From NCBI GenBank assembly GCA_001773695.1, contig MEXN01000003.1, positions 89,547 to 138,652 of the forward strand: a stretch of DNA of 49,106 nucleotides. Direction: 5' to 3'. The stretch is from Candidatus Amesbacteria bacterium RIFCSPLOWO2_01_FULL_48_25. Lineage in GTDB: Bacteria; Patescibacteriota; Microgenomatia; CAZETR01; Amesbacteraceae. Positions 23,410 to 26,689 of this stretch are shown here, in pieces. The translations under genes were made by a program, and so were the position numbers. Numbering within the stretch: the stretch's first letter is position 1; each line of letters opens with the position of its first letter. The notes beneath the pieces are model-generated. The model searched no databases. It saw nothing but the letters and a program-made list of their open reading frames with translations, and was not told the origin of the DNA.

Positions 23410-24015
23410 TTACTGGCAAACTAGCAGGAGGTTGGTGAGACTGCGAATGGGGGTGACCGAAGTGAAGTATTTTTTCAGCTTTTCGGCTAATTCGAGAGCA
23501 GCGTGTTTTTGAGAGTCAGAATGAAAGAGATGATTAAGAATTACTAATTGACCTAATTGATCTAATTGACCTAAAAATTTATTAGAATACACGAATTTGG
23601 GAATTTGGTCACCCAAATACAAATCAACCAAAATATAGTCGAAGTGATCTTTGGTCTTGAATAAATAGTCATTGGCGTCTTTTATAACAAATTTCAGGTT
23701 GGGGATTTGGTCGAGGCCGAAATGTTTTTTACCGATGGCGATCATTATGGGATCGATTTCCACACCGATTATTTTGACGGGCTGAGGAATGAGGCGAGCC
23801 ACAGTGCCAGTGGCTAAGCCTAAAATTAGCCAAGATTTTAGCTTTAAGTCGATGGTCTTTAGCTTTTGAAAAACTGGCTGCCAGACGTCTTTGATGATTC
23901 CCCCACTCTGGGTCCAGTAACCGGTAGAAACGTACTTATATCCCCAGCCTTGCATGACTTTGATCTTTCCAGAATATGGTGAGTCAAATTCTTCTAATAT
24001 TTTAGGCCCAAACAT
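23410..24015 (-). CDS. Spermidine synthase-like SAM-binding protein
   Basis: 201 residues. Rossmann methyltransferase features: WLILGLATGTVARLIP (motif I, ~62-77), IIGVEIDP (acidic loop), VIKDANDYL and DYILVDLYLGDQIP (post-II region), as in polyamine aminopropyltransferases. An aminopropyl-substrate gate is not obvious, so methyltransferase-like activity on another substrate is possible. It starts five bases after the serS stop and so is the third gene of the T-box-controlled operon. Confidence 0.75.
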   Translation of the reverse strand: MFGPKILEEFDSPYSGKIKVMQGWGYKYVSTGYWTQSGGIIKDVWQPVFQKLKTIDLKLKSWLILGLATGTVARLIPQPVKIIGVEIDPIMIAIGKKHFGLDQIPNLKFVIKDANDYLFKTKDHFDYILVDLYLGDQIPKFVYSNKFLGQLDQLGQLVILNHLFHSDSQKHAALELAEKLKKYFTSVTPIRSLTNLLLVCQ

Positions 24016-24020
24016 ATATT

Positions 24021-25337
24021 CTATGCCTTGGGGAGAATTTTGTCTTTGCCCATGTAGGGGCGGAGGACTTCGGGAACCGTGACAGAACCGTCGGGGTTTT
24101 GGTAGTTATCCAGAATGGTGACGATCATTCGCCCCATAGGAATTCCAGTGTCGTTGACAGAGTGAACATATTTTTTTTGACCGGTATTTACATACTGGAT
24201 ATTCATTCGCCTGGCTTGGTAATCCCAGGCGTCGGTGTTGGAGCCGAGTTCTATAAACTCGCCTTGAGTCGGAAGCCAGCCCTCAAGATCGTATTGTAAA
24301 TAGGTAGCATTGTAGCCACAATCGCGAGAGCATTTGTTGATTACTCTGTAGGGAAGTTTTAGCTGCTGCATTAACCATTCATTAATTCCCCGTAAATATT
24401 CCATCATCTCCCGCGATCCTTCTTGTGTAGTCAGGGCATCTATTTCCAGCTTGTCGAACTGGTGGACACGTTTGACTCCCCTGACGTCTTTGCCCCAGGA
24501 GCCGACTTCTGAACGGAAACATTGGGTGTAAGCAAAGAATTTCTTTGGTAAGTCTTTTTCCTTGAGGGTTTTGTTCATGTAATAAGCAAAGAGCGGAGGC
24601 TCGGAGGACCCGACTAAAAAGAGCCGTTGTTGATTTTCCACATTGTGTGTTTCGATTTCGTAGACTTGATCACGGCCTTCTGGAAAATGGCTTGTCCCAA
24701 ACAAGACTTCTTCTTTTACTAAAACCGGAACGATCATGGGCTCAAAACCTTCGGATATTAATTTATTTTTAAAAAGTTCAAACAAGGCAAATTGGAGTAA
24801 GGCCGCGTCTCCCTTTAGGTAAGCAAAACGGGAACCTGAGGTCAGGGCACTTTGCTCGATATCAATGATGTCCAACTTTTTACCGAGGTCGACGTGGTGC
24901 AAGCCGGTCTTTTTTGGCATGTGTTGGGCGCTATTTAATCCTTTACCTAATTTGGATTTGGGCAAATAACCCTCGCTTGGGAGCCAAACAGCCAGCTCGA
25001 CGTGGTCCGGGTCACCGTTTCCTTCCGGCATATCCGGTGAGGACATATTTGGGATCCTCGCCAGTAAATCTCTTGCTTGCGTTTTGGCAATTTCCAAATT
25101 GTCTTCTAATTTTTTCAGTTTCTCTCTTTGAGCACGAAGTTTTTTGAGTTCTTCTGGAGTTGGCTTAGTGCCAGGTTGGAGATTGCGTAAAGCACGAATT
25201 TCCTCTACTTGTTTGAGCAGCTTGAGGTAGTGTTTGTCTGCTTCCAAAGCCTGGGCTACCGATATTTTGCCACCACGAAAATCAACGTTTTTTTGAACTA
25301 AGTCTGGTTGTTCACGAATAAGCCTGATGTCGATCAT
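24021..25337 (-). CDS. serS: Seryl-tRNA synthetase
   Basis: 438 residues. Charges tRNA-Ser with serine. The N-terminal coiled-coil arm (about 30-100, EEIRALRNLQPGTKPTPEELKKLRAQREKLKKLEDNLEIA in two helices) binds the tRNA long arm. Class II motif 2 is FRSEVGSWGKDVRGVKRVHQFDKLE; the motif 3 region reads GSNTDAWDYQARRMNIQY where bacterial enzymes usually have SNCTDFQARR, a mild deviation. ATG overlaps the phosphatase TGA (ATGA), so translation is coupled. It is transcribed from the T-box-like leader at 25952-26084. Confidence 0.95.
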   Translation of the reverse strand: MIDIRLIREQPDLVQKNVDFRGGKISVAQALEADKHYLKLLKQVEEIRALRNLQPGTKPTPEELKKLRAQREKLKKLEDNLEIAKTQARDLLARIPNMSSPDMPEGNGDPDHVELAVWLPSEGYLPKSKLGKGLNSAQHMPKKTGLHHVDLGKKLDIIDIEQSALTSGSRFAYLKGDAALLQFALFELFKNKLISEGFEPMIVPVLVKEEVLFGTSHFPEGRDQVYEIETHNVENQQRLFLVGSSEPPLFAYYMNKTLKEKDLPKKFFAYTQCFRSEVGSWGKDVRGVKRVHQFDKLEIDALTTQEGSREMMEYLRGINEWLMQQLKLPYRVINKCSRDCGYNATYLQYDLEGWLPTQGEFIELGSNTDAWDYQARRMNIQYVNTGQKKYVHSVNDTGIPMGRMIVTILDNYQNPDGSVTVPEVLRPYMGKDKILPKA

Positions 25338-25951
25338 ATAGCTTGCTTTGCTAAATCTGATTCTAAACCTTTTAGATGGCTGGTGTCATTAAGATAAATG
25401 ATTTTGGCTGGGCTGTGAGTCTCCATTAGAGTAACGGCTGTGGGCTGCATAGCCAAATGCCATATTTTGTCCAAATCCAGTTTCAATAGATAGCAAAGTA
25501 TTACCTGAATAATATTGGCGTGGGTAACGGCCGCGAAAGTGCCAGGCTGGTTAGCCAGGTTGTCAAACCAGTTGATAGTCCTGGTGGCAGTATCCGCAAA
25601 GGATTCGCCGCCGGGAAAAGTGGCAAGGCTCGGGTGAGTCTGCCACTTTTGATAAAGGTCCGGCCAGGTGGCCTGGATTTGGGCTTTGGATTTGCCTTCC
25701 CACTGGCCATGGTTGGTTTCGAAAAGGGCTGGTTCGTCCGTGGAACCGCCTAAGGCTGCTGCCGTTTGGCGGGTACGTTTGAGGGGACTCGTAAAAACTG
25801 CGTCGGGCTTTTCTGACTTGAAGCGGTTTTTAAGAGCTTGGGTTTGAAGACGACCGAGGGGAGAAAGGTCCGTGTCATATGACTGGCCCTGATAAATCCC
25901 GGCAGTGTTGGCTACCGACTCAGCGTGACGAATAAGATATATTTTGGCCAT
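25334..25951 (-). CDS. Histidine phosphatase family protein, first gene of the serS operon
   Basis: 205 residues from ATG 25951. Phosphohistidine motif LIRHAES (5-11), SPLKRTRQTA, an acidic NHGQWEGKS and second catalytic His in VTHANIIQV. The family spans phosphoglycerate mutases, alpha-ribazole phosphatase and metal-independent phosphoserine phosphatases. Being first gene under a serine-type T-box and coupled to serS makes phosphoserine phosphatase attractive, though inferred. The longer frame beginning at 25987 was rejected: it would translate the leader's terminator hairpin. Confidence 0.85.
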   Translation of the reverse strand: MAKIYLIRHAESVANTAGIYQGQSYDTDLSPLGRLQTQALKNRFKSEKPDAVFTSPLKRTRQTAAALGGSTDEPALFETNHGQWEGKSKAQIQATWPDLYQKWQTHPSLATFPGGESFADTATRTINWFDNLANQPGTFAAVTHANIIQVILCYLLKLDLDKIWHLAMQPTAVTLMETHSPAKIIYLNDTSHLKGLESDLAKQAI

Positions 25952-26084
25952 GAAAAAAACCGCTGGTGTTGCGGTTTCAGGTGCCACCTCAACTAATGCT
26001 CAATTTAAAGCTATTACGGGCTTTCCCGAACCGGTTTTTGACCCCGGTCAGCTTGACAGTTGGAAGCTGTCTTATACGCTTTGT
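25952..26084 (-). promoter_or_regulatory. T-box-like (tRNA-Ser) riboswitch leader of the serS operon
   Basis: Read on the minus strand. A hairpin GACAG-CTTCCAA-CTGTC (26071-26055) has TCC, a Ser codon, in its loop (26064-26062). Further hairpins lie at 26048-26030 and 26028-26017. The T-box core GGTGGCACC is at 25988-25980; TGGC would pair with the GCCA end of tRNA-Ser, whose discriminator is usually G. Antiterminator: GTTG-A-GG (25993-25987) can pair with CC-G-CAAC (25974-25968), enclosing TGGCACC. This excludes the terminator stem AACCGC/GCGGTT (25976-25971, 25963-25958) with seven T. The ATG follows one base after the T-run. Stem I is short and lacks the usual extra motifs I can recognise. 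Confidence 0.62.
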
Positions 26085-26689
26085 GTGTTGATTATAGCGT
26101 ATTTGGGGAGGTTTTGAAAGGGATTGTTGTCAAATGTAATATTTGAGACTTTGTCCAGAACTTCGTCTATTGAAATATGGTAAACGTCAGCAAAGATTTC
26201 AGCAGCTGCGGTGATGATTTTCTTGTCCCAACTAAAGCCTAATTTGGTTGCTATGTCCTTCACTTTCTCTTCCGATTCGGCTTCGATTTCCGAGTATGGC
26301 TCAAGTCCTGGCCAAGTATCTATGGTAATTTCTGCCCCTGCGTACTCCCAAGATTCTCTAAGTGTTTCCTGATATCTTTCGGGTTTATAGCCCATTTGTT
26401 CGAAGATTTGAAGAGTTTTGTCATAGTTACTTACTTCAACGTCCACTTCTTTTTGATCACTAAGTGACCCAGTCTGGGAAGCGTGGGTTTTGGCACTGAG
26501 ACTGATTAAATTACCTTCGTCTCGGACCCGAATGTAATGGCACTTAAATTCCTGGTGAAACCTAGCGTCAAAAATCGCCCGGCGCATTTTACGCTCGGGA
26601 ATAACTAATTTTGCACCAATACTCTTCAGTTTTTGACGGTATTTGTCTTTGTTTACCGGGTAAAACTTGGCTTCGAATTCAGTGTCCAT
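26072..26689 (-). CDS. CYTH domain protein (triphosphate-binding, CyaB/ThTPase-like)
   Basis: 205 residues. The N-terminal signature ExExK is present as EFEAKF (residues 4-9), followed by alternating basic and acidic strands (RRAIFDARF, YIRVRDEGNLISLSAK, EITIDTWPGLEPYSEIEAES), as in the triphosphate tunnel metalloenzymes. These hydrolyse or cyclise triphosphates; class IV adenylate cyclase, thiamine triphosphatase or tripolyphosphatase are all possible. The ATG is preceded by TATCAT at ten bases. Its 3' end contains the promoter of the serS operon. Confidence 0.85.
   Translation of the reverse strand: MDTEFEAKFYPVNKDKYRQKLKSIGAKLVIPERKMRRAIFDARFHQEFKCHYIRVRDEGNLISLSAKTHASQTGSLSDQKEVDVEVSNYDKTLQIFEQMGYKPERYQETLRESWEYAGAEITIDTWPGLEPYSEIEAESEEKVKDIATKLGFSWDKKIITAAAEIFADVYHISIDEVLDKVSNITFDNNPFQNLPKYAIINTQSV
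26091..26118 (-). promoter_or_regulatory. Promoter of the serS operon
   Basis: Minus-strand TATAAT at 26091-26096 with a TTCAAA -35 candidate 16 bases upstream, located inside the 3' end of the CYTH gene. Start of transcription expected near 26084. Confidence 0.5.

Follow-up and report, generated by a model that had tools for sequence, protein, structure and literature searches.

The closest described counterparts of the leader reported here come from Actinobacteria. The ileS T-boxes with an ultrashort stem I in that phylum are translational and have no elbow-binding module (PMC7583486), and the Nocardia farcinica ileS T-box has C14 and the specifier A16-U17-C18 in its apical loop (PMC10651847, PMC10482949). 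The TBDB class II covariance model describes a truncated stem I type like the present one, and the TBDB class II set was gathered in Actinobacteria only (PMC7778990).

We analyzed a leader in a 49,106-nt stretch of Candidatus Amesbacteria DNA (the window) that is very probably, on comparative sequence evidence, a T-box-type riboswitch sensing tRNA-Ser(GGA) and antiterminating a phosphatase–serS operon. With the canonical class I T-boxes (RF00230, Bacillus subtilis type) it shares the UGGNACC bulge, the specifier, an antiterminator opposed to a terminator, the F-box pseudoknot, the place before synthetase genes and the C as third specifier base, but it lacks a long stem I carrying the interdigitated T-loops that bind the tRNA elbow. 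With the actinobacterial ileS class II T-boxes (Nocardia farcinica, Mycobacterium) it shares a short stem I whose apical loop carries the codon, the lack of a tRNA-elbow module, the UGGN bulge, and a stem II followed by a IIA/B pseudoknot with an F-box, a likeness drawn from published descriptions. Unlike those T-boxes, however, the window leader lacks the S-turn, stem III and helix A2. The Patescibacteria leaders also differ in serving Ser plus at least seven other amino acids, and in mostly using intrinsic terminators rather than sequestration of a Shine–Dalgarno (SD) sequence; the window leader has a U7 run and no clear SD before the ATG.

On the minus strand, the leader separates a CYTH-domain gene, whose end is at 26072, from a histidine phosphatase gene that begins with ATG at 25951. 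The features of the locus are:

26091–26118, minus strand: sigma-70-like promoter, TTCAAA-16-TATAAT, 10 of 12 matches in a motif scan.
About 26084–25952, minus strand: leader, approximately 130 nt including the terminator, directly 3′ of the sigma-70-like promoter.
25334–25951, minus strand: histidine phosphatase (branch 1), PF00300; first regulated gene.
24021–25337, minus strand: serS, seryl-tRNA synthetase, TIGR00414 above cut-off and matches to SerRS in PDB; second regulated gene.
23410–24015, minus strand: methyltransferase or polyamine-aminopropyltransferase-like protein in the same gene run, weak Pfam and NCBIfam matches under cut-off.

Judging by the promoter motif, transcription would be expected to start near 26084, immediately 5′ of stem I. 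Among 110 relatives, 85 have a TANNAT box within a 26-nt stretch spanning the leader start, compared with 12–19 in upstream control windows. The original prediction described a phosphatase–serS–spermidine synthase-like operon. Named relatives whose serS is close to the one here (82% and 76%) belong to Candidatus Amesbacteria. The third gene, which is followed by secA, is only weakly spermidine-synthase-like, with matches under the cut-offs. The NCBIfam matches of the phosphatase, CobC-like and PspA phosphoserine-phosphatase-like, are likewise both under cut-off. Going by the PspA-like match, the enzyme may be a phosphoserine phosphatase that yields serine, and the genes would then form a serine operon. 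Automatic calling started the phosphatase at GTG 25987, within the T-box (ORF 25334–25987); this start was rejected because relatives begin at residues matching ATG 25951. Sequence inspection found no clear SD in front of that ATG.

The elements of the leader, from 5′ to 3′, are:

26050–26080, minus strand: stem I, with base AGC (26080–26078)/GCU (26052–26050) and hairpin GACAG (26071–26067)/CUGUC (26059–26055).
26062–26064, minus strand: specifier UCC (Ser), within the 7-nt hairpin loop CUUCCAA (26066–26060).
26030–26048, minus strand: reduced stem II, ACCGG/CCGGU, 5 pairs closing the loop GGUCAAAAA.
26007–26028, minus strand: stem IIA/B pseudoknot, with IIA CGG (26028–26026)/CCG (26019–26017) and IIB AAAGC (26024–26020)/GCUUU (26011–26007).
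25997–26006, minus strand: single-stranded linker AAAUUGAGCA, replacing stem III; AAUNRAG is near-invariant in the ten-leader alignment.
25968–25993, minus strand: antiterminator helix A1, GUUGAGG (25993–25987)/CCGCAAC (25974–25968).
25980–25986, minus strand: T-box bulge UGGCACC, its UGGC complementary to the GCCA 3′ end of tRNA-Ser (G73).
25953–25977, minus strand: intrinsic terminator AAACCGC-AACACCA-GCGGUUU, a 7-pair hairpin with a U7 run at 25959–25953, overlapping the A1 3′ strand.

All elements that had been predicted for the leader are found in this arrangement. The Ser codon TCC lies in a hairpin loop (CTTCCAA, between GACAG and CTGTC), the antiterminator pairs as proposed and leaves TGGCACC free, and the competing terminator (AAACCGC/GCGGTTT) is followed by seven T that end one base from the start codon. 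Stem I, about 31 nt long and ending in the specifier loop, agrees with the suggestion of a very short stem I and perhaps a minimal class, the codon being displayed by the loop of a hairpin, a trait of the actinobacterial ultrashort type. Where a K-turn (tandem G·A) would lie in stem I, relatives read UUUGAG/CGAG and the window leader reads AUAAG/CAAG. An F-box-like CCGUAA occupies 26019–26014 in the pseudoknot region, and the stretch between the stem II hairpin and the linker is CGGGAAAGCCCGUAAUAGCUUU. In rough regular-expression counts, an S-turn-like stem II was present in 31 of 33 Ile leaders and few Ser leaders, and a stem II loop of type GGGUNANAA in many Ser and some Asp leaders; the window leader has the GGUCAAAAA hairpin instead of an S-turn. 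The Ile siblings, with a CUAUCA loop and mostly an S-turn-like stem II, resemble the actinobacterial ileS type. Helix A1 of the window leader consists of six pairs and one A·G mismatch, with UGGCACC plus UGAAA unpaired, and some siblings (e.g., L066 and L072) have both A1 and A2. In a nearest-neighbor model, the terminator (−8.8 kcal/mol) is more stable than the antiterminator (−4.5 kcal/mol). The missing A2, stem III and S-turn count against a T-box, as do the mismatch in A1 and its weakness relative to the terminator.

The sequence shows the terminator and antiterminator to be mutually exclusive hairpins, because both use 25974–25971. From the described T-boxes we infer tRNA binding and switching as follows. 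The anticodon GGA of tRNA-Ser would pair with the UCC exposed by the loop of stem I, which the IIA/B pseudoknot and the reduced stem II would keep positioned. If the tRNA-Ser is uncharged, its free 3′ GCCA would pair with UGGC in the T-box bulge, and this contact would steady the antiterminator GUUGAGG/CCGCAAC and remove the 5′ arm of the terminator, allowing RNA polymerase to enter phosphatase–serS. With charged seryl-tRNA, the second contact would be barred, the stronger terminator would form and transcription would end one base before the start codon. The operon is probably switched on when serine-tRNA is uncharged.

Alternatively, the T-box might act mainly on translation, with tRNA binding freeing the phosphatase start region. 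Translational action is the known mode of T-boxes with an ultrashort stem I (PMC7583486), and many siblings (38/110) have an SD-like terminator 3′ arm with the U run abutting the start codon. In the window leader, however, the hairpin has seven pairs and is followed by seven T, and its 3′ arm, GCGG, makes a poor SD; moreover, a T5/U5 run 3′ of the T-box is present in 98 of 109 leaders. A mainly translational action is therefore unlikely, and we prefer antitermination. A U run of at least 5 lies no more than 4 nt from an ATG, GTG or TTG in 70 of 110 leaders (e.g., L124, L115, L109, L157 and L146), this count and the 38/110 being rough pattern counts in which some of the codons are not true starts. 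The terminator may at the same time sequester an SD. Five leaders (L065, L070, L083, L097 and L099), also in favor of a translational mode, have a good antisequestrator-like A1 near a start codon and no U run, and these are probably translational versions.

The T-box core named in the original prediction, GGTGGCACC, is present at 25988–25980 on the minus strand, but by itself it carries little weight: GGTGGNACC is expected 1.5 times by chance per window of this composition. The leader might then be no more than a plain intrinsic terminator, or the CYTH gene's 3′ end, in which GGTGGCACC occurs by accident; terminator-like hairpins are common, the fold z-score of the leader is a modest −1.7, and Rfam is silent. 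The proposed check with RF00230 gave no match to the leader at E ≤ 10 in the window and none in its own genome, which counts against a T-box and leaves the leader outside canonical class I as defined by the Rfam gathering cut-off of 93 bits. Matches to the Rfam families OrzO-P and Trp_leader (E about 4–5) were dismissed as chance.

Comparison of leaders across relatives ruled out the chance motif, which we regard as having practically no probability. By blastn, the leader was 84% identical over 87 nt (E = 4e-20) to a sequence in a genome from a different genus of this family, and was found at 77–88% identity in several other genera, 5′ of the same phosphatase or of serS; one relative stands before valS, with an altered loop. 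Although GGTGGNACC alone is at chance level, the whole leader is beyond chance because it is conserved in relatives. A covariance model (R1) was built from ten related leaders with a hand-made structure, the RNAalifold consensus of these ten having been discarded for a wrong long-range pairing. At E ≤ 0.01, R1 had matches in 110 of the 374 genomes examined from the class; after retraining on 100 leaders, the model matched 131 of them at E ≤ 0.001. In the leader's own genome there was a single covariance-model match (E = 7e-18; next best E = 6), which also argues against chance. Almost all matched leaders precede an aminoacyl-tRNA synthetase gene or an amino-acid gene, and weaker yet clear members stand before synthetase genes in other classes of the phylum (L214–L222). 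Two refuting outcomes had been named, and the comparison bore out neither. Relatives linked to serS or phosphatase–serS keep GGTGGCACC, a TCC/AGC specifier, a pairing antiterminator and a terminator, and the paralogous leaders before other genes carry the codons of their own downstream synthetases.

The leaders show a conserved, covarying structure. In an alignment of 100 leaders that had been fitted to the structure of the model, from which the pair counts were taken, 93.4% of the cells of 16 pairs were standard, compared with 28–48% with the partners slid. There were 443 double-changed cells, compared with 124 after shuffling, and 15 of the 16 pairs had double changes. In both helices of stem I, all 7 modelled pairs had changed on both sides, with 93–97% of cells paired, and the same two-sided change was seen for all 5 pairs of the stem II helix. 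The columns of the IIA/B pseudoknot, including the crossing helix, were 92% paired, compared with 29–44% when slid, and 5 of 6 pairs had double-sided changes; this column count with controls was clearer than a pseudoknot parser based on loop-tail complementarity, which gave a modest excess. The A1 score across 109 leaders was 5.47, compared with 3.97 for shuffled sequences. Taken together with the tracking of synthetase genes by matching codons, described below, conservation and covariation in more than 100 loci speak against a fortuitous motif. One phosphatase–serS leader, L040 (genome G012, named record L051), has kept stem I and the T-box and lost stem II and the IIA/B pseudoknot.

Specifiers were read in 110 leaders, with downstream genes labelled by clustering and NCBIfam representatives. 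The triplet was read one or two positions short of the point where the stem I loop ends on its 3′ side, and right up to that point in loops of 6 nt or fewer. In 86 of the 105 leaders it encodes the amino acid of the gene that follows; over 20,000 label permutations, the mean was 37 and the highest count 52. Ser leaders were the main building material of the covariance model and were removed as a control; 60 of the remaining 74 were correct (permutation mean 20, maximum 34). This shows a fit between specifier and gene for Ser, Ile, Val, Asp, Asn, Pro, Ala and Arg. The pairs are UCC or AGC with serS, AUC with ileS, GUC with valS, GAC with aspS and GCC with alaS; CCC or CCG leaders precede proS, proB or a gene for a CsaA-like tRNA-binding protein with proS after it. 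C is the last base of almost every specifier, in keeping with the C-rule known for T-boxes (PMC7778990). AAC leaders precede an aspartate–tRNA(Asn) ligase-type enzyme and aspartate aminotransferase (L101, L090 and L106), which fits a non-discriminating AspRS and amidation of Asp-tRNA(Asn).

Predictions made blind from the triplet, for leaders whose first gene was unclear, came true. L080, with GUC (Val), has valS as its second gene, and L151, with AGC (Ser), precedes serS. In the Pro-type group with a CsaA-like gene, proS lies behind in 3 of 7, with a weak match in a fourth. L165, with CGC (Arg), precedes an argininosuccinate-lyase-like gene of the lyase family PF00206, which we take, from our own reading of the sequence beyond its family membership, to be argH.

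The discriminator base would be part of a second contact. The genome of the window carries a tRNA-Ser(GGA) with G73, fitting both UCC and UGGC, so that the cognate tRNA is at hand and the proposed match of TGGC to the GCCA end of tRNA-Ser holds. Amino acids can be sorted by the discriminator base of their tRNAs, G73 or A73, and the tRNAs of this genome conform to the sorting used here. Among leaders of G73 amino acids, 34 of 42 have C as the N of UGGN, and among those of A73 amino acids, 54 of 57 have U (Fisher p = 1.6e-15), which shows that the bulge fits the discriminator. Of the serS leaders with a readable T-box, 4 of 17 have UGGU, not UGGC, which counts against the T-box reading. Attenuators likewise set a terminator against an alternative hairpin ahead of synthetase or biosynthesis genes, but ribosome-mediated attenuation through a Ser-codon-rich leader peptide is almost certainly wrong, since, among listed ORFs of at least 70 aa, the phosphatase frame alone overlies the leader. 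In addition, a single codon occupies a fixed spot in the covarying hairpin's loop, and the UGGN base changes in step with the discriminator base, to which a ribosome would be blind.

The original prediction knew of no T-box described in Patescibacteria. This needs amending: among 47 genomes of the class tested, 5 contain long T-boxes above the RF00230 cut-off, which coexist in the class with the compact leaders, and 35 have some RF00230 match at E ≤ 0.01. T-boxes of Patescibacteria are detectable by existing models, because RF00230 reaches sibling leaders and these 5 genomes exceed the cut-off. Many siblings are aligned end to end by RF00230 with scores under its cut-off, which supports their common descent with known T-boxes. 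The long canonical T-boxes L231, L232, L233 and L234, from the same class, score 94–100 bits; L233 is located before alaS and two are before a GNAT-like protein.

A literature search for T-boxes in Patescibacteria, CPR or Parcubacteria found none; it covered subscription papers thinly and is weak evidence of novelty. As far as the literature searched shows, the compact class is undescribed. On balance, we favor the view that Patescibacteria have a lineage-typical class of compact, terminator-coupled T-boxes with the codon in a hairpin loop, serving at least eight amino acids. In its Ser branch, a GGGUNANAA-loop hairpin would replace the S-turn, stem III and A2 would have been dropped, and the codon–anticodon pair would be held in another way; at approximately 130 nt including the terminator, these would be among the smallest tRNA-sensing switches. 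Patescibacteria are tiny, mostly uncultured bacteria with generally poor amino-acid synthesis, and their gene regulation is little known. A widespread family of tRNA-charging sensors would mean that these bacteria follow their amino acid supply at the level of single genes. The compact leaders would also break the stated tie of an ultrashort stem I to translational control, and more than 100 compact T-boxes with eight specificities offer material for testing which T-box parts are dispensable.

The leader codon, finally, is a means of linking uncharacterized genes to a particular amino acid. The CsaA-like tRNA-binding gene stands under a Pro-type T-box in L105, L115, L158, L078, L124, L140 and L160, with proS next in at least three, hinting at a role linked to prolyl-tRNA. 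CGC (Arg) leaders are found before GNAT acetyltransferases, the argH-like lyase of L165 and the protein family of L126. The L126 family had no Pfam or NCBIfam match, and its leader codon suggests that it belongs to arginine metabolism; in L139, a protein resembling it is encoded behind the GNAT gene. In L156, another CGC leader, an M32-peptidase-like protein lies 400 nt away.
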